Positions 61-32,366 of a stretch of DNA of 32,386 nucleotides are shown here, piece by piece (the stretch's first letter is position 1; each line of letters starts with the position of its first letter). A program made the position numbers and the translations under genes. Source of the stretch: Planctomycetota bacterium (lineage in GTDB: Bacteria; Planctomycetota; Planctomycetia; Pirellulales; Pirellulaceae); the NCBI GenBank assembly GCA_024277285.1, contig JAJRVM010000365.1:1-32386 (forward strand). Reading direction: 5' to 3'. The notes beneath the pieces are model-generated. The model searched no databases. It saw only the letters and a program-made list of their open reading frames with translations, and was not told the origin of the DNA.

Positions 61-130
61 ACCGTTAGCGGCGCTGCGGTCGTCGGTGTTGGTGAGACGG
101 TACGGTGATTCGCGAACACGCGCTGCTCGG

Positions 131-152
131 TGTCCTCTGTGTCCTCTGTGGT
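131..152 (-). repeat. Solitary copy of the ACCACAGAGGACACAGAG repeat
   Basis: Read on the minus strand this is ACCACAGAGGACACAGAGG followed by ACA. It matches the repeats that bracket the GxxExxY gene at 12457-12484 and 12861-12890. No nuclease gene or remnant can be recognised next to it. Confidence 0.8.
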
Positions 153-299: not shown

Positions 300-342
300 A
301 AAAAAAAAACGCAGAGGACGGCTAGCGTTACCGTCCTCTGCG
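300..342 (-). terminator. Intrinsic terminator of the first PEP-CTERM gene
   Basis: On the minus strand a perfect 12-bp stem (CGCAGAGGACGG, 342-331, pairing with 321-310) with a 9-nt loop is followed by about ten T residues (309-300). It starts about 40 bases past the stop codon at 383. The stem is made of the AACGCAGAGG repeat family also found at 32181-32366, so a mobile-type repeat may have been adopted as the terminator. Confidence 0.75.
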
Positions 343-382
343 CGTCTCTGCGTTAAATGGCCGAGCACACTCGATTCGATAC

Positions 383-11562: not shown

Positions 11563-12399
11563 CTACGCGGTTTCGCCGAGTAATCGTCGAATATTTCCGG
11601 AGAGAACCTTGCGTTCTTTCTCAGGAGGAAGATTCAAGAGCCGTATTTTTTGGAGCTCCAGACGCGAGTCGACGAGCGGTCCATCGGATCCGAAGATCAG
11701 CTTGTCTGCAGGCAACTCGTGCGCCGCCAATTCGAGGTATCTGAAAAAGACGACGGATGACGTCTCTAAATACAAATTCGGGTGCCGCTTGGCCGCTTCA
11801 ATGGCGCGAACATGCTCTTGCCAACGGGCGGTCGCGAAACTCCCAAGGTGTGCCAAAATGAAGTTGACCTCAGGGTGGGACTTCACCGCATCGTGACAGT
11901 CGTCGACTCGCGTGGGGTGAAACAGAATGGGGATTCGCGACTCGGCCGCCGCGTCCATCATTTCTGTCGAGGGAACGCCATGCAACTTCAGGCCCTTCAA
12001 GCCCCACTGTCTGATTTCGCGCAGGAGCATCGGTCCGATACGACCCGCCTCGGTTTCGGGGTCGTGCTTGGCGAATCCGATGAGCTTGTCCGGCCATGTC
12101 TGGATGAATTCCGCGATCTCTGCGTTTGCCTTTTCGTAGGTGACGTTCGAAATCGGAAAGATAATCGTTCGATCAATTCCGACCTCCTCCATTTTTCGGA
12201 GGGTTTCTTGCGGATCGTTGAACGTCGTCCACGGCGCCTGCGCACCTTCCTTTCCGAAATTCATGCCTTTGCCGGCATGGCAATGCGCATCAATGATCAA
12301 ATCGGTCGGCGACGAGCTCGCGCTGACCTCCGTGGTCGCGGTGACCATCGTCGCCGCGCCACACGCGATCCCTTTCGTCAAGAATTCACGACGTTTCAT
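11563..12399 (-). CDS. Tat-exported amidohydrolase (amidohydrolase_2 family)
   Basis: Encodes 278 residues. The N-terminus MKRREFLTKG is a twin-arginine signal, followed by an alanine-rich stretch to about residue 30. This predicts folding in the cytoplasm and export. The metal-site pattern of the amidohydrolase TIM barrel is visible: DAHCH (37-41), the strand with GLKGLKLHG, FHPT, ILAHLGS and FGSDGP near the C-terminus. The family includes decarboxylases and lactonases (Pfam amidohydrolase_2). The substrate cannot be told from sequence. It is the first gene of a probable two-gene unit with the M23 peptidase. Planctomycetes have many Tat-targeted members of this family. Confidence 0.87.
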   Translation of the reverse strand: MKRREFLTKGIACGAATMVTATTEVSASSSPTDLIIDAHCHAGKGMNFGKEGAQAPWTTFNDPQETLRKMEEVGIDRTIIFPISNVTYEKANAEIAEFIQTWPDKLIGFAKHDPETEAGRIGPMLLREIRQWGLKGLKLHGVPSTEMMDAAAESRIPILFHPTRVDDCHDAVKSHPEVNFILAHLGSFATARWQEHVRAIEAAKRHPNLYLETSSVVFFRYLELAAHELPADKLIFGSDGPLVDSRLELQKIRLLNLPPEKERKVLSGNIRRLLGETA

Positions 12400-12425
12400 A
12401 TTGGCTCTCAGTTTCTTGCGTGTCT

Positions 12426-12473
12426 GGTTCTTACCCCAGAGGACACTCAGATTCTTACCACAGAGGACACAGA
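12426..12473 (+). repeat. 24-bp tandem direct duplication of the repeat end
   Basis: Two adjacent 24-base units (12426-12449 and 12450-12473) agree at 20 of 24 positions and share the core TTCTTACC(C/A)CAGAGGACAC. The inner unit runs into the inverted repeat that ends at 12484. The duplication lies immediately 3' of the GxxExxY gene and 5' (in map terms) of the amidohydrolase start. Confidence 0.75.
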
Positions 12474-12484
12474 GTGCACAGAGG
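12457..12484 (+). repeat. Left inverted repeat of the GxxExxY unit
   Basis: ACCACAGAGGACACAGAG followed by TGCACAGAGG. Its last base directly abuts the TGA stop (12487-12485) of the minus-strand GxxExxY gene. It pairs as an imperfect inverted repeat with 12861-12890. Confidence 0.85.
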
Positions 12485-12856
12485 TCAGATTTTGAAACGT
12501 GTGATTCCGTCTTTTAGCAACTGGACATTGAAGTTGATCAATAGTCCGGTCTGAATGCTGGCCAGTTTCATGTAGGTCAGCAATTGTGCCTTGTGAATGC
12601 CTTTGATTTGCTCTACGGCCTTTAGTTCCAGAATCAATTGCCTCGCTACCATGATGTCGACTCGGTATCCACAGTCAAGTCGAACCCCCTTGTATTCCAC
12701 GGCCAGCGGCGTCTGAAGATCGAATATGACGCCCTGCAGACCAAGCTCTCTTGCAAGACAATGCTGATAGGTTGACTTCAGCAGGCCAGGCCCGAGAGTT
12801 CGATGCACTTCGATCGCACATCCGATCACCTTTCCCGTCAGAATATCTTTCTGCAT
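12485..12856 (-). CDS. GxxExxY-family protein (PD-(D/E)XK nuclease-like)
   Basis: Encodes 123 residues from ATG 12856. A longer frame to 12907 only adds translated repeat DNA and is rejected. The pattern is that of the GxxExxY family, in which a PD-(D/E)XK endonuclease-like fold is predicted: VIGCAIEVHRTLGPGLL at 10-26, then RVDIMV with the acidic residue, ILELKAVE with the E-x-K pair, and a C-terminal LLTYMKL...LLINFN. The eponymous motif reads GLLKSTY, so the Glu is Lys; the D and E-x-K positions are kept. The biological role of the family is unknown to me. The gene is framed exactly by inverted repeats, and its flanks are unrelated genes (amidohydrolase and hypF). Nuclease activity is unproven, and the Lys substitution could weaken it. 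Confidence 0.85.
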   Translation of the reverse strand: MQKDILTGKVIGCAIEVHRTLGPGLLKSTYQHCLARELGLQGVIFDLQTPLAVEYKGVRLDCGYRVDIMVARQLILELKAVEQIKGIHKAQLLTYMKLASIQTGLLINFNVQLLKDGITRFKI

Positions 12857-12860
12857 CGTT

Positions 12861-12890
12861 CTCTGTGCCTTCTGTGTCCTCCGTAGTGGT
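12861..12890 (-). repeat. Right inverted repeat of the GxxExxY unit
   Basis: On the minus strand: ACCACTACGGAGGACACAGA followed by AGGCACAGAG. It aligns with the left repeat with a two-base insertion and a few mismatches. It ends four bases before the ATG of the GxxExxY gene, so it also supplies the purine-rich leader where a ribosome binding site would be. Confidence 0.85.
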
Positions 12891-12953
12891 TGAATCCCCG
12901 ACCACATTCTGAGAAAGTGAGCTTGCTGGTCAACGACTCGTGCGAGTTTGAAT

Positions 12954-15275
12954 ATGCAATCGTCTGAAACGAACCGCCGGGTGCGTCTTGAAGTGAGAGG
13001 TATCGTGCAGGGAGTTGGCTTTCGGCCGTTTGTGTTTTCGCTTGCCCGTCAACTGGGTCTTGCTGGCTCCGTAAGGAACCATTCGGCCGGTGTAACGATC
13101 GAGGCCGAAGGTGAACGCTGGCGGATTTCGAACTTCGTCGATCGCTTGCAGACCAAGCCTCCGCGTCTAGCGCAGATCGACTCGATCGATGTGATCGACA
13201 TTCCGATGGAAGGCCACCGTGACTTCCACATCATCGAGAGTGAGTCGGCGGCGGGCATCGGCACGCCGGTGTCGCCGGATGTTGCGACGTGTGCGGATTG
13301 TCTATCCGAGCTGCGTGACTCTGGAGATCGCCGATATCGTTATCCGTTTACCAACTGCACTAACTGTGGCCCACGGTACACGATCGTTCGAGACATCCCT
13401 TATGATCGACCGCTGACAACCATGAGCAAGTTCGCCATGTGTGATGCGTGCGATCGAGAGTACCGTGACGCTAGCGATCGCAGATATCACGCCCAGCCCA
13501 ATGCGTGCCCAGTGTGTGGGCCGACCGTGTGGTTTGTTCAAGGGGCGAGCACAAACGAACGTGCCGCCTTCACTCGGATCTCGGTTCCCGTTGCCCAGCA
13601 CGCGATTGACGCCTTTCATCGGAGTATCGACGCGGACGAGGTCGTGGCGGTCAAGGGGATCGGCGGATTTCACTTGGCCTGTGCTGCTCAAAGCTCGCCG
13701 GCCGTTCACAAGCTTCGCGTAAGAAAGGGCCGTGTTGATAAACCGCTGGCCGTGATGGTCGCCGACGTGGCCGCGGCCAGACGATTCGTCCACATCAGTG
13801 CGAGTGAGGAGAGGCTTCTCAGCGGTCATCAGCGGCCGATCGTCCTGCTGAGACGGCGCTCTGGCAGCAACTTGTCGGAACTCGTGGCGCCCGGGACTGA
13901 CTTCATCGGAGTCATGCTCGCCTACTCACCGCTACATGCATTGCTGGTTGAGCGACGATCCTTGGTGATGACTTCGGGGAACGTGAGTGAAGAGCCGATT
14001 GTGCGTACTAACCTTGGAGCGTTCAAGCGATTGAGGTCGCTGGCTGACGCGTTTCTTCTTCACGATCGCGATATCCACGTTGTGTGCGACGACTCGGTCG
14101 TGCGCGCCGTGCACGGTCGTGAGCTGCCAATCCGACGGTCTCGTGGCTACGCGCCGATGCCCGTTCGCCTGAACACGAATGTGCCAGCGGTCTTGGCGGT
14201 CGGCGGCGAATTGAAGGCAACGTTTTGCCTAACGAAAGACCGATACGCGTTGATGAGTCCACATATCGGCGACATGGGTAATCTGGAAACGCTTGAAGCA
14301 TTTCAGCGAACGGTCGATCATTTTCAAAGGCTGTTTCGCATCAAGCCTGCACGGATCGCATGCGACATGCACCCGTCCTATCTGTCCAGCCAATGGGCTC
14401 GCAAGCGAGCTCAAGAGAACGACTTGCCGCTGATCGAAGTTCAGCATCACCATGCCCACATTGCTTCGGTTCTCGCGGAGCATCACGTTGATCCGGCGCG
14501 GCCCGTCATCGGTATCAGCTTTGACGGCACGGGATACGGTCCGGATGGTGCGATCTGGGGAGGCGAGATCTTGGTGGCTTCGTGTAGCGGTTATCGCCGC
14601 TGGGCACATCTCAAGTACGTTCCGCTTCCCGGCGGAGACGCGAGCATCCGGCGCCCGTATCGGTCGGCGCTGGCTCACCTCTGGGCAGCAGGTCTTCCCT
14701 GGGACGAACGTTTGCCCTGTGTGGCCGAGTGTCCAGAGAGCGAACGGGCAATTCTTTATCGCCAGTTGCAGCGCGATCTAAATTGCACACAGACCAGTAG
14801 CATGGGAAGGTTGTTCGACGCCGTGGCCGCTTTGATTGGAATACGACAAACGGTCAATTATGAAGCTCAAGCGGCGATGGAAATGGAGGCATTATCTGAC
14901 GAGCTCGACGGCACCTGTTCGTACACTTTCGAGCTCTCGGAAGGCCAGCCCCGTGTAATCGACTCGGTGTCGATGCTCGAAGAGATTTCGAAGGACGTGA
15001 TCGCCAGCGTACCACGATCCAGAATTGTCAGCCGTTTTCATTGCAGCATCGCAAGTATGATCGTCGAAGCGTGCGAGCGTCTACGTGACCAAGAAGGCCT
15101 TGACGAAGTTGTGCTCAGCGGCGGCGTGTTTCAAAACGCCCTCCTATTGCAGCACTCGGTCGATCGGCTGAAGAGACTCGGTTTCGACGTGATGGTGCAC
15201 CGAGTCGTACCGCCCAATGACGGTGGACTCGCTTTGGGGCAGGCGATCATTGCAGCGTCGACGTTGGGTCCGTAG
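12954..15275 (+). CDS. hypF: Carbamoyltransferase HypF
   Basis: Encodes 773 residues from ATG 12954 (TTG 12948 also possible), the usual HypF length. HypF turns carbamoyl phosphate into a thiocarboxamide on the HypE C-terminal cysteine, the first step in making the cyanide ligands of the [NiFe]-hydrogenase iron. Domains in order: acylphosphatase (VRGIVQGVGFRPFVF, about 14-28); a zinc-finger region with paired cysteines CADC, CTNC, CDAC and CPVC (about 113-188); a YrdC-like domain (about 205-395); and a Kae1-like carbamoyltransferase domain with HHHAHIASVLAEH, SFDGTGYGPDGAIWGGE and LSGGVFQNALLL. All expected motifs are present. It is the first gene of the hyp operon and lies 63 bases from the GxxExxY repeat, which may sit at or near its promoter. 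Confidence 0.97.
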   Translation: MQSSETNRRVRLEVRGIVQGVGFRPFVFSLARQLGLAGSVRNHSAGVTIEAEGERWRISNFVDRLQTKPPRLAQIDSIDVIDIPMEGHRDFHIIESESAAGIGTPVSPDVATCADCLSELRDSGDRRYRYPFTNCTNCGPRYTIVRDIPYDRPLTTMSKFAMCDACDREYRDASDRRYHAQPNACPVCGPTVWFVQGASTNERAAFTRISVPVAQHAIDAFHRSIDADEVVAVKGIGGFHLACAAQSSPAVHKLRVRKGRVDKPLAVMVADVAAARRFVHISASEERLLSGHQRPIVLLRRRSGSNLSELVAPGTDFIGVMLAYSPLHALLVERRSLVMTSGNVSEEPIVRTNLGAFKRLRSLADAFLLHDRDIHVVCDDSVVRAVHGRELPIRRSRGYAPMPVRLNTNVPAVLAVGGELKATFCLTKDRYALMSPHIGDMGNLETLEAFQRTVDHFQRLFRIKPARIACDMHPSYLSSQWARKRAQENDLPLIEVQHHHAHIASVLAEHHVDPARPVIGISFDGTGYGPDGAIWGGEILVASCSGYRRWAHLKYVPLPGGDASIRRPYRSALAHLWAAGLPWDERLPCVAECPESERAILYRQLQRDLNCTQTSSMGRLFDAVAALIGIRQTVNYEAQAAMEMEALSDELDGTCSYTFELSEGQPRVIDSVSMLEEISKDVIASVPRSRIVSRFHCSIASMIVEACERLRDQEGLDEVVLSGGVFQNALLLQHSVDRLKRLGFDVMVHRVVPPNDGGLALGQAIIAASTLGP

Positions 15276-15302
15276 CTTGTCCATGCCATTGCGTGAGCTT
15301 TC

Positions 15303-15331
15303 TTGACGCGCCACGCTATTCAGGTGATATT
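15303..15331 (+). promoter_or_regulatory. Possible sigma70-type promoter before hypA
   Basis: TTGACG (15303-15308) and GATATT (15326-15331) are 17 bases apart, a near-consensus -35/-10 pair placed 33 bases before the hypA start. It would allow hypA-E to be expressed separately from hypF. Planctomycete promoter rules are less well known to me, so this is tentative. Confidence 0.3.
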
Positions 15332-15363
15332 GGCGTGTTTGCAAGGAAGATGGTGAATCGTTA

Positions 15364-15759
15364 ATGCACGAACTGTCGATTGCCAACAGTCTCATAGAAA
15401 TCGCCACACAAGCCGCGGTCGACGCGGGTGCGACACGCGTGACAGAGGTCCGCTTGCGCATCGGAGTGCTTACGTGTGTCCATCGAAACGCACTCGAATT
15501 TTGTTACGAGTTGGCGACGAAGGACACGATCTTGGAAGGCTCACAGCTCGCCATTATCGAAGTACCGCTCGTTATCCATTGTCCCGCCTGCGACGCCGAC
15601 GTCGAATTGCCGACTCTTCAGAGCTTCCAATGTCCCGTGTGCGGCACACCAAGCGCCGACGTTCGGCAGGGGAAGGACCTGGAAGTTGAGAGCATTCAGA
15701 TTGACCAGGACGATCCGGCTTCGATAAGGCTCTGCCAAGCAACGGAGGATTTGCAGTGA
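15364..15759 (+). CDS. hypA: Hydrogenase nickel insertion protein HypA
   Basis: Encodes 131 residues, slightly longer than the usual 113-120. HypA is the nickel metallochaperone working with the GTPase HypB. The N-terminus MHELSI holds the nickel-binding His2, and the structural zinc site is CPAC (C73, C76) and CPVC (C90, C93). The reading frame starts 88 bases after hypF and ends in a 4-base overlap (GTGA) with hypB, so hypA and hypB are probably translationally coupled. The extra C-terminal tail (about 20 residues, acidic) has no recognised function. Confidence 0.96.
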   Translation: MHELSIANSLIEIATQAAVDAGATRVTEVRLRIGVLTCVHRNALEFCYELATKDTILEGSQLAIIEVPLVIHCPACDADVELPTLQSFQCPVCGTPSADVRQGKDLEVESIQIDQDDPASIRLCQATEDLQ

Positions 15760-16451
15760 AACCTCGGATTCTGGAAGTTAGAACGAAGGTCCTCAAAAAG
15801 AACGACGAGCTGGCACGGAGTATGCGAAATGGGTTCGTCGCATCGGGTGTTTTGGTCGTCAATTTGGTTTCCAGTCCAGGGACAGGAAAAACAAGGCTCC
15901 TGCAAATGACTTTGGCAGTCATGCACGCTGCCCATGGAAGAGTTGCGGCGATCGTCGGCGATCTGGAGACCGACAACGATGCGAGACGCTTGGCCGAGAG
16001 TGGTGCGCCGGTGCGTCAGATCATGACGCACGGATGTTGTCACCTTGAGGCGGACATGGTTCGAGAGCACCTGGAAGGGTGGGATCTTGACGACTACGAT
16101 TTCCTTTTCATCGAAAATGTTGGCAATCTGGTCTGTCCTACAAGCTGGGATTTGGGCGAGTCGCTTCGCGTCGCGATGCTCTCCGTCACCGAAGGAGAAG
16201 ACAAGCCGCTTAAGTATCCAGGGCTATTCAATACGGCGGATGTCGCGGTCATTACTAAAGTTGATCTGTCGGAACCTTGTGAATTCAGGCGAGATGTGGC
16301 ACGGAGGAATATCGAATCCGTCAGACCCGGGATGCGTGTGTTCGAAACGTCGGCTAAAACAGGGGTGGGCGTGGACGAATGGATCGATTTTCTACGGCAG
16401 CAGCGCGTGCGTCTGATCAGCGATCCGGGCCAACAGACGCCGCGTTGTTGA
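15756..16451 (+). CDS. hypB: Hydrogenase nickel incorporation GTPase HypB
   Basis: Encodes 231 residues starting at GTG 15756, which overlaps the hypA stop. HypB hydrolyses GTP to drive nickel insertion. The P-loop SSPGTGKT is at about 39-46, the switch-type segment FIENVGNLVCPTSWDLGE follows, and ITKVDL supplies the guanine-binding NKxD-like motif. The metal-site segment reads THGCCHLEADMV (C94, C95, H96). In the family this is usually GCHLDA with a further histidine, so the extra cysteine and the aspartate are atypical. There is no His-rich or CxxCGC N-terminus, so nickel storage is not expected. Confidence 0.96.
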   Translation: MKPRILEVRTKVLKKNDELARSMRNGFVASGVLVVNLVSSPGTGKTRLLQMTLAVMHAAHGRVAAIVGDLETDNDARRLAESGAPVRQIMTHGCCHLEADMVREHLEGWDLDDYDFLFIENVGNLVCPTSWDLGESLRVAMLSVTEGEDKPLKYPGLFNTADVAVITKVDLSEPCEFRRDVARRNIESVRPGMRVFETSAKTGVGVDEWIDFLRQQRVRLISDPGQQTPRC

Positions 16452-16490
16452 GCGTGAATAAATTGACGCCGGACAGAGGAGCATCGAGAA

Positions 16491-16772
16491 ATGTGTTTGG
16501 CCGTACCGGGGCAAGTCCTGGAAGTCTACGAAGAGAAGGGGACCCGAATGGGGAAAGTCGACTTTGGCGGAGTCGTCAAGAATGTCTGCCTGGCTTTCGT
16601 GCCTGAGGTCGGTGTGGGCGACTACACGATCGTACACGTCGGATTCGCGATTAGTCAGATCGACGAGGCACTCGCCCAAGAAACATTGCGCACGTTCGAG
16701 CAGTTGGGACGGTTGGAGGACGAGCTGGAAGCGTCCCGAGAACAAGGCGAAAACGATGAAGTTCTTGGATGA
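16491..16772 (+). CDS. hypC: Hydrogenase assembly chaperone HypC
   Basis: Encodes 93 residues. HypC carries the Fe(CN)2CO fragment with HypD and escorts the immature large subunit. The N-terminus MCLAVPGQV holds the essential Cys2 of the family, and [13 protein letters not shown] is the conserved barrel strand. A ribosome binding site AGAGGAG lies nine to ten bases upstream of ATG 16491. The last 17 bases overlap hypD. The charged C-terminal helix after residue 75 ([14 protein letters not shown]) is variable in the family. Confidence 0.96.
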
Positions 16773-17862
16773 GTTTCGCAACGGCGAGAAAGCGAAAGCT
16801 CTGGTGGCCGAGATTCGCAAGATCGTGACCCGGCCGTGGGCGATCATGGAAGTCTGCGGCGGTCAGACTCACAGCATCATTCGTAATGGCATCGATCAGG
16901 TTCTTCCAGACCAGATCGAACTGATTCACGGACCCGGCTGCCCCGTTTGCGTCACTCCCCTGGAGGTGATCGACAAGGCCCTTGCTGTGGCGGCGATGCC
17001 TGGTGTGATCTTCTGCTCGTTCGGCGATATGCTGCGCGTGCCCGGTAGCTCACAAGACCTCTTTGGCGTAAGAAGCGCCGGCGGTGATGTGCGAGTTGTT
17101 TACTCGCCGTTGGACGCCGTCCGTATCGCACAGCAGCAACCCGAAAAACAGGTCGTCTTCTTTGCCATCGGATTCGAGACCACGGCGCCGGCTAACGCCA
17201 TGGCGATCAAGATGGCGAAGCAGCAACGTTTGTCAAATTTCTCGGCGCTCGTGTCCCATGTCTTGGTGCCTCCCGCAATCGAGGCCATTATGAGCTCGCC
17301 GGATAATCGTGTCCAAGCCTTTCTGGCGGCCGGACACGTTTGCAGCGTGATGGGTTACTGGCAGTATTCTCCGCTGGCCGAACAATACCAAGTCCCCTTA
17401 GTCATTACTGGATTTGAACCTCTTGATATTCTGGAAGGCATCCGGCGCGCTGTCTTGCTGCTAGAGTCCGGCGAGTCCAGGGTCGACAATGCGTACGAGC
17501 GCGTCGTTACCATGGAAGGTAACAAGCCTGCCCAAGGCGTCATCAACGAAGTGTTTTCCATCACGGATCGCGGCTGGCGAGGTATCGGTGTGATTTCCGA
17601 CAGCGGCTGGACACTAAGCGACGCTTACATAGAATTCGATGCAGAACGTCGATTTGCAGTTTCTGATATTCAGACGTGTGAGTCGTCGTTGTGTCTCAGC
17701 GGGCAGGTTTTGCAGGGCGCCATCAAGCCGAACCAATGCCCGGCATTCGGCAAGCCGTGTACGCCTCGCTCGCCGCTCGGCGCGACGATGGTTTCGACGG
17801 AGGGCGCGTGTGCTGCCTACTACAATTATGGTCGCCACTTGGAATCAGAGGCTCAGGTATGA
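16756..17862 (+). CDS. hypD: Hydrogenase formation protein HypD
   Basis: Encodes 368 residues from ATG 16756. AAGGCGA supplies the ribosome binding site, and the longer frame back to 16564 is a shadow of hypC. HypD is the iron-sulfur scaffold on which the iron gains its cyanide and CO ligands. The motifs [10 protein letters not shown] (C34), [11 protein letters not shown] (C62, C65) and [10 protein letters not shown] are intact. The C-terminal cysteines of the [4Fe-4S] site are also present, including [16 protein letters not shown] and [10 protein letters not shown]. It overlaps hypC by 17 bases and hypE by 4, which indicates tight translational coupling. Confidence 0.97.
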
Positions 17863-18938
17863 ACGAGGGCGAGGATCCGAACGGCGAGTCTCCGAATCTT
17901 GGCGGCTACACGTGCCCCGTTCCACTTCGAGACTACCCGAACGTTGTGCTCGGCCATGGGGGCGGAGGCAAGCTTTCGAGCGAGCTTGTCGAACACCTCT
18001 TTCTGCCTGCCTTCAATAACCAGCATCTCGCGAACCTGGGTGACTCCACCGTCCTACGGATTGGCGACCAGCGTTTCGCCTTTGCAACCGACTCGTTTGT
18101 CGTAAGGCCTCTGTTCTTTCCAGGCGGTTGCATTGGCGACTTGGCGGTGAACGGAACGGTCAACGATTTGGCGATGAGCGGCGCGAGGCCGCTGTACCTG
18201 AGTGCAGGCTTCATCGTCGAAGAAGGGTTTCCGATCGAGTCGCTTATTGAGGTCGCGAATCGGATGGGGAAAGCTGCTCGTCAGGCCGGCGTTGAGATCG
18301 TGACCGGTGACACGAAAGTCGTCGAAAAAGGGCACGGAGATGGGTGCTACATCAACACGTCCGGTATCGGCGTCGTACCCAGCGGGCTAGACATCACCGC
18401 TCATCAGGCCCAGCCCGGTGATGTCGTCGTTCTCAGTGGAACGGTGGGCGACCACGGGATGGCGATCATGAGTGTCCGCGAAGGGTTGGAGTTCGATGCC
18501 GAAATCGAGAGCGACAGCGCTGCACTCCATGGACTCGTCGATACGATGCTCGTCGCCTGTCCTCGCCTACGAACGCTACGCGACCCGACGCGTGGTGGTG
18601 TCGCCTCGTCGCTGAACGAAATCGCCGTGGCATCCAACGTCGGCATCGTACTCGAAGAATGCGCGATTCCCGTTAAGCCAGTCGTCCAATCGGCATGCGA
18701 GATTTTGGGACTTGACCCGCTGTTTGTCGCCAACGAAGGGAAGCTGATTGCGATTGTCCCTTCTTCGGACGCCGAGGCCACCGTCGCGGCGATGCGACAG
18801 CACGTGCACGGACGAGAGGCACGAATTATCGGTCGCGTCACCAGTGAGCATCCGAGCATGGTGGTCGCAAGAACGGCCATCGGCGCCACACGCGTCATCA
18901 CGATGCAGATTGGCGAGCAGTTGCCGCGCATCTGCTAG
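17859..18938 (+). CDS. hypE: Carbamoyl dehydratase HypE
   Basis: Encodes 359 residues from ATG 17859 (ATGA overlap with the hypD stop). HypE is an AIR-synthase-like ATPase that dehydrates the carbamoyl group on its terminal cysteine to a thiocyanate. The protein ends exactly in PRIC, the acceptor cysteine of the family. [52 protein letters not shown] and the [10 protein letters not shown] segment match the two PurM-type lobes. It is the last gene of the operon; a short hairpin and T tract follow at 18939-18976. Confidence 0.97.
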
Positions 18939-32180: not shown

Positions 32181-32219
32181 AAACGCAGAGGGCGCTAAGG
32201 ACGCAAAGACGCGCGGAGG
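32181..32219 (+). repeat. AACGCAGAGG-family repeat, left copy
   Basis: AAACGCAGAGGGCGCTAAGG followed by ACGCAAAGACGCGCGGAGG. It is related in style to the left terminator hairpin (310-342) and inverted with respect to the copy at 32332-32366. Confidence 0.7.
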
Positions 32220-32331
32220 GGAGGATCTTCGTTCTTTTCCTGCATGGGCTCTTTGTTGGGTGGTGGTCTTGAGAGCGGTGATTTTCCCACTTTCGGTGGT
32301 TCTTGGAGTTCGATTCTCCGAAGACTGCGGT

Positions 32332-32366
32332 CCTCCCTCTGCGGGTCTCCGCGTCCTCTGCGTTTT
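32332..32366 (-). repeat. AACGCAGAGG-family repeat, right copy
   Basis: On the minus strand: AAAACGCAGAGGACGCGGAG followed by ACCCGCAGAGGGAGG. Inverted relative to the copy at 32181-32219, so the two bracket about 110 bases with no gene. Confidence 0.7.

Follow-up and report, generated by a model that had tools for sequence, protein, structure and literature searches.

What kind of genetic unit is a gene for a small predicted nuclease that lies exactly between two inverted repeats? The question is raised by a locus of a Planctomycetota bacterium (assembly GCA_024277285.1), in a stretch of 32,386 nucleotides that we analysed as a whole (contig JAJRVM010000365.1, positions 1 to 32,386; the window). 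A preliminary description of the window had suggested that the gene and its repeats may move or be copied together, with the nuclease acting on or near the repeat ends.

Results

The GxxExxY gene of the window lies between two word arrays

The gene (12485..12856, minus strand; ATG at 12856, stop codon at 12487-12485) encodes a predicted PD-(D/E)XK nuclease of 123 amino acids. The protein is a clear member of TIGR04256 (GxxExxY; 138.7 bits, curated cut-off 35) and of PDDEXK_3, PF13366 (135.5 bits, curated cut-off 22), both scored on a 140-aa reading; the family descriptions mention no repeat. Its neighbours are an amidohydrolase gene (11563-12399, minus strand) and hypF (12948-15275, plus strand). 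Beside the element lies a hydrogenase maturation cluster (12948-18938) of consecutive genes: hypF, a gene for a hypB-like GTPase, hypD and one that is hypE-like. Rfam gave no match at gathering score in the window, rRNA included, and the window copy is situated outside rRNA genes.

The tight framing first described was reproduced. The ATG lies 4 bases (AACG) from the right-hand arm and the stop codon 1 base from the left-hand arm, and the arms are indeed inverted copies, 12457-12483 and 12861-12887 being 85% complementary over 27 nt. As a score for inverted repeats we used the best ungapped inverted match (+1/-2) in the 200-250 bases on each side of a gene. The window gene scored 15; among 1902 random placements in the window, none scored above 13. 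Each arm is built from repeated copies of a 7-bp word (CACAGAG in this element), set apart by short spacers. The 3' arm, which follows the stop codon (12457..12483), reads ACCACAGAG-GA-CACAGAG-TG-CACAGAG on the plus strand and holds three exact CACAGAG words. The 5' arm, upstream of the gene start (12861..12890), consists of an ACCAC edge and a word array that is partly degenerate: a degenerate CTACGGAG is followed by CACAGAA and CACAGAG. The core AGGACACAGA ascribed to the repeats is present in both window arms. The GATTC...ACCAC outer edge ascribed to them was also found in the window (GATTCTTACCAC / GATTCAACCAC) but did not hold across the family, where GATTC is not recurrent; only ACCAC with a weak T-rich lead recurs, and among 141 elements 84 left and 84 right edges start with ACC. 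The edge of the 3' arm has a degenerate second copy (12423..12450), such that 12423-12446 and 12447-12470 form a direct repeat (88% over 24 nt).

Related arms occur elsewhere in the window. A solo arm with the same word as the element lies at 126..151 (minus strand; CACAGAG, CACAGAG, CACCGAG), a gene-less hairpin with the word CGCAGAG was read by eye at 308..354, and a gene-less inverted pair with CGCAAAG/CGCGGAG/CGCAGAG words was paired by eye at 32200..32365; the right arm of this pair was also picked up by the array scan, at 32347. A stricter scan yielded four word doublets in the window, where a first-order Markov null gave an expectation of 0.12 (maximum 2 in 200); two of the four overlap each other in the 3' arm. 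At 38-60 there is a tandem tgcaaag array of ≈ 3.5 units, which resembles the arrays around four-helix-bundle genes (e.g. L223).

Inverted repeats frame GxxExxY genes in several phyla

The enrichment analysis that had been proposed for the family gave a positive answer: inverted repeats frame 125 of 161 GxxExxY genes and 5 of 712 control positions, at a score threshold of 12 that was picked after the first distributions had been seen. In a multi-phylum set, a score of at least 12 was obtained for 57 of the 77 testable loci (controls 1/382). Framing was found in 26 of 28 loci sampled from Planctomycetota (controls 2/125), in 20 of 29 from Bacteroidota (1/96) and in 22 of the 27 testable loci (of 29) from Pseudomonadota (1/109). 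When the threshold was raised to 14, the counts in the four samples were 51/77, 25/28, 15/29 and 21/27, against 0/712 controls. A strong inverted repeat was absent from 36 of the 161 genes tested, and some of the repeats above the threshold are not word arrays (e.g. L440 and L159). We regard the observation of a gene framed by inverted repeats as confirmed: it is real and general.

The multi-phylum set comprised the best 80 of 583 loci, obtained with a profile built from 24 homologues. For the phylum samples, the names of the phyla were inferred from those of the centre genomes (L035, Schlesneria; L047, Bacteroidetes; L036, Thioalkalivibrio). These samples were non-random: of the genomes over the cut-off, the top scorers were taken (28 of 54, 29 of 99 and 29 of 64), each with its single best copy, and the samples are thus biased against weaker GxxExxY genes. 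Short flanks excluded L032, L041 and L057 from the multi-phylum set, L448 and L450 from the Pseudomonadota sample, and L233 from the four-helix set described below.

GxxExxY matches above the cut-off were found in 54 of 119 Planctomycetota, 99 of 198 Bacteroidota and 64 of 398 Pseudomonadota genomes, and 7999 protein clusters matched a single query (this number equals all candidates scored). Genomes often carry several copies, some of them decayed, and have 1 to 15 gene matches when fragments are included. Matches were found in 0 of 50,697 phage records and 8 of 72,556 plasmid records, which led us to reject transport by phages or plasmids as the main route. Viral contigs gave 17 pattern matches, none of which was a relative.

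Words agree between the arms and follow the nuclease lineage

Elements typically have arrays of two to four copies of C[A/G][C/T]-NN-A[G/T] in steps of 8-11 bp, with outer edges near TTNACCAC. The words vary between elements and include CACGAAG, CACAGAG, CACGGAG, CGCAAAG, CGCAGAG, CACAGAT and others. Of the 141 elements, 94 could be read in both arms, and in 73 of these the commonest word was identical in the two arms, compared with 15.8 when right arms were shuffled (maximum 28 in 2000 shuffles). Loci fetched later replicated this result (40/61 vs 7.3 shuffled, maximum 18).

Mismatches between arms were counted in 90 arm pairs from the 141 elements. Words differed at 122 of 1801 positions (7%) and spacers at 136 of 306 (44%). 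The search expression fixes part of the word, and the two free word positions were therefore counted separately; they mismatched at 54/257 and 9/257, still under the spacer rate. In the replicate set, the free positions mismatched at 48/178 and 12/178 and the spacers at 90/231, so the contrast between word and spacer is weaker at the middle base (48/178). With words matched and spacers free, the arms are not maintained merely for pairing.

On the protein tree, the word required 34 changes, compared with 56.6 when words were shuffled (minimum 50 of 300). Shuffling only within host phyla gave a similar picture for 57 named loci (17 vs 28.2, minimum 24), as did a larger set in which 125 of 199 loci were labelled (48 vs 81.4, minimum 75). 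In addition, different nuclease copies within one genome (G013) have different words: CACGAAG, CGCAGAT, CGCAAAG and CACGGAT. The word is thus passed on with the lineage of the nuclease more than with that of the host.

Conserved residues, and purifying selection in close pairs of the nuclease gene

Residues D67, E77 and K79 were invariant in 47 of 47 aligned proteins. We take these to be the catalytic D...E-x-K residues of the PD-(D/E)XK superfamily. The ratio dN/dS was ≈ 0.10 for the close pairs G154-G156 and G153-G162 and 0.24 for G014-G158, the remaining pairs being too distant or decayed to judge; the gene is thus under purifying selection in the pairs measured. A sequence search of the PDB gave no relative of the protein at E up to 1. 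PHROGs gave one weak match of unknown function (E 0.0078) for one of three proteins. A role as a defence system was considered and rejected, the sole PADLOC match, for one of three proteins, being weak and partial (E 0.0056, 39 residues).

Alignment column 7 (T/S) tracks base 5 of the word. This covariation fell short of significance among six independent pairs (mean 1.8 in the same direction, 0 opposite, 4.2 without difference), too few for it to be more than a lead.

Gene and arms are copied together and gene-less derivatives occur

The suggestion that gene and repeats are copied as one unit was borne out in G013, where three copies of ≈ 450-518 bp are 89-91% identical and divergent outside. 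Similarity begins ≈ 20-30 bases outside the 5' arm. The true ends of the element are uncertain, since similarity extends tens of bases past the arms both here and in Thioalkalivibrio and many arms are nested or tandem. The same genome contains internally deleted derivatives (L239 and L245) and short hairpins (L240, L241, L244 and L250) in which a few bases at either end are all that is left of the gene. These hairpins are not each an independent insertion, because some have flanking repeats in common. Tandem or repeated elements were seen in both G013 and R. baltica. Two R. baltica loci that are 100% identical (L111 and L112) were considered as a case of transposition; the identity spans 4.5 kb of flank, and an assembly duplicate is more likely.

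The arm pattern CCACRRAGRRCACRRAG was found in 15 of 16 gene-carrying genomes (0-104 copies), and the reversed control pattern had no match in the same 16 genomes. Among 119 Planctomycetota genomes, 29 had gene and pattern, 26 the gene only, 15 the pattern only and 49 neither (Fisher p 0.0012; the single arm pattern used covers only some words). Genomes with a gene match contained 346 arm copies and those without contained 69; the reversed pattern matched 6 times in the 119 genomes, compared with 415 for the arm pattern. Arms thus occur in 15 of the 64 genomes that lack a gene match, at up to 27 copies, and the pattern is absent from 26 of the 55 genomes with a gene match. Taken together, the element is widespread and dispersed, and an enzyme lineage tends to have a word of its own.

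Two further arrangements were observed. In G021, outward-facing arm pairs (L251-L254) start 35 bp apart, the mirror image of the usual layout. At L246, two inverted arms separated by 1.5 kb enclose a GxxExxY remnant and what appears, as read by eye, to be an inserted transposase gene.

Filled and empty sites in Thioalkalivibrio

One orthologous site was followed through Thioalkalivibrio. Of 30 genomes searched, 19 had any match, and both flanks were readable in 15 species, of which 7 were filled and 8 empty (G161, G157, G148, G152, G175, G159, G160 and G155). The filled sites contain CACAGAG arms (G014 and G158), CACGAAG arms (G154, G156 and the truncated G176) or a third arm type (G153 and G162), and the three types go with different nuclease variants. 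Comparison of empty and filled sites had been proposed as a means of defining exact ends and any target duplication. For G161 and G014, the right end could be placed just after GTGGTA or GTGGTAA, and no target duplication was visible by eye at the junction. On the left side of the G014 insert an older degenerate arm is also present. Two gene-less sites are occupied, scarred or empty depending on species. At the Thioalkalivibrio sites we saw no clear target duplication or excision product, sites other than that of G014/G161 being too divergent.

Arms of two types are nested at similar places in Thioalkalivibrio. L339-L358 are concentric nested palindromes with outer CACGAAG arms, a shared linker and inner CACAGAG arms, repeated many times. 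In one arm of L340 (1216-1306), the array has expanded locally to eleven word doublets that follow one another every 9 bp (CTCCGTGTA repeats).

A similar layout around four-helix-bundle genes

Genes for four-helix-bundle proteins (TIGR02436) were found in 9 of 10 genomes, and 30 loci were taken (L209-L238). Inverted repeats frame 21 of the 29 testable loci and 0 of 121 controls. Here, too, the arms are inverted and mostly short-period arrays, with words quite other than those of GxxExxY genes. Framing is therefore not unique to the nuclease. In PMC4990558, the intervening sequence (IVS) of Coxiella 23S rRNA is described as having a terminal stem of 28 bp, with GACAGAT heptamers in tandem ahead of the S23p open reading frame; the S23p protein of Xanthomonas is described as built of four-helix bundles, and the functionality and origin of 23S rRNA intervening sequences are called unclear. 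The four-helix-bundle loci and the Coxiella IVS may be linked to the GxxExxY elements.

Discussion

The window element is probably an autonomous copy of a dispersed element of ≈ 0.45 kb that resembles REP/RAYT systems, with a PD-(D/E)XK nuclease as its partner protein. An action of the nuclease on the arms is suggested only by the co-inheritance of word and protein and by the three invariant residues. As a mechanism, we propose that the nuclease would bind its own word array, much as a protein reads iterons, and would cut at or beside the arms. Repair by the host might then place a copy of the unit in or beside a new site, and copies that lack the gene could be mobilized in trans.

A narrower form of this reading is of the homing type. 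The nuclease would cut the arms of other elements or adjacent empty sites, and repair would copy its own unit in, giving replacement and nesting at fixed sites without free movement. This scheme fits the orthologous Thioalkalivibrio site where arms and nucleases of different types are found, the nested arms and recurrently occupied sites of that genus, and the tandem or repeated elements of G013 and R. baltica. Against it stand the gene-less hairpins at several sites of one genome, though some of these share flanking repeats, and the lack of an evident recognized sequence at the empty sites; we hold the homing scheme to be somewhat unlikely. The nuclease might also be a passenger. The arms would then be dispersed palindromes of an ordinary kind that owe their spread to recombination or to another enzyme, with small genes riding in their loops and the nuclease inert on the arms. 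Such a scheme accommodates the Planctomycetota genomes that have arms and no gene match, the framing of four-helix-bundle genes by other words and the many gene-less nested palindromes of Thioalkalivibrio. It does not account for the co-segregation of word and nuclease lineage across and within host phyla, for the different words of different nuclease copies in one genome, or for framing far above the control rate in four samples, and an inert protein sits poorly with conserved D67, E77 and K79 and with purifying selection. On balance, we consider a passenger unlikely.

Selection could, finally, act on an RNA stem, as in 23S rRNA intervening sequences: RNase III would excise the stem formed by the arms, the insertion would be harmless, and pairing rather than the word would be selected. 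The window element does fold with a long terminal stem (z -5.97), and the Coxiella IVS of PMC4990558, as described above, combines such a stem with tandem heptamers. This explanation is very improbable in view of the high mismatch of spacers relative to words within the same stem, the lack of a bias of mismatches toward sense-strand wobble pairs (70 vs 78) and the position of the window copy outside rRNA genes.

Among known systems, REP/REPIN repeats with their RAYT enzyme (TnpA_REP, REPtron) come close. According to PMC3116915 and PMC8266576, they share with the present element dispersed inverted repeats, a flanked enzyme gene and gene-less doublets; an enzyme lineage is tied to its own type of repeat, for which our evidence is co-inheritance only; and both are seldom found on phage or plasmid records. 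There are also differences. The REP enzyme is an HuH protein (TnpA_REP), whereas only TIGR04256 and PF13366 matched the GxxExxY enzyme, a PD-(D/E)XK protein. A REP is a palindrome of 20-50 nt that follows a conserved tetranucleotide, mostly GTAG, whereas GxxExxY arms are arrays of 7-bp words with free spacers and commonly an ACCAC edge. GxxExxY genomes have 1 to 15 gene matches each, fragments included. Because its enzyme is not HuH and its repeats are not GTAG-tagged palindromes, the GxxExxY element is not a member of the REP/RAYT family.

The 23S rRNA IVS, as described in PMC4990558, likewise has one small open reading frame between inverted repeats, tandem heptamers before this frame and terminal inverted repeats that hold short tandem repeats. 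It differs in encoding S23p rather than GxxExxY and in its words, and the window copy is not in an rRNA gene; GxxExxY, moreover, retains three nuclease residues. MITEs and small insertion sequences resemble the element in having terminal inverted repeats, internal-deletion derivatives and several copies per genome. Unlike them, the GxxExxY element has no known transposase (its only matches being TIGR04256 and PF13366) and has word arrays in place of a unique terminal repeat. Inspection of the G014/G161 junction by eye showed no target duplication.

A broader view may be put forward tentatively, as a possibility somewhat short of a probable one. The elements could form a separate class of selfish elements, present in many bacterial phyla, in which one small protein gene is flanked on both sides by inverted arrays of its cognate word of 7-8 bp. 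GxxExxY and S23p would be branches of this class, and 23S rRNA intervening sequences would be those members whose insertion fell in rRNA genes. The protein would read the word, and word and protein would co-evolve as an identity code that chooses which copies are propagated, gene-less ones included.

In open-access PMC full text, a scope that leaves aside subscription papers and preprints, we found no published description of such an element. The same source yielded no role for GxxExxY, no paper that joins S23p with repeat terms and, among the matches listed, none that joins PDDEXK with REP-type repeats. The papers there that held one of four arm sequences concern animal biology.

GxxExxY is a large family, and the present finding offers a testable role for it. 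Natural pairs of enzyme and word, in many variants, constitute a ready-made specificity code. The finding further points to a source of dispersed repeats and, possibly, of the intervening sequences of 23S rRNA, and words that belong to a lineage suggest how tiny selfish elements might recognize their own copies and spread.
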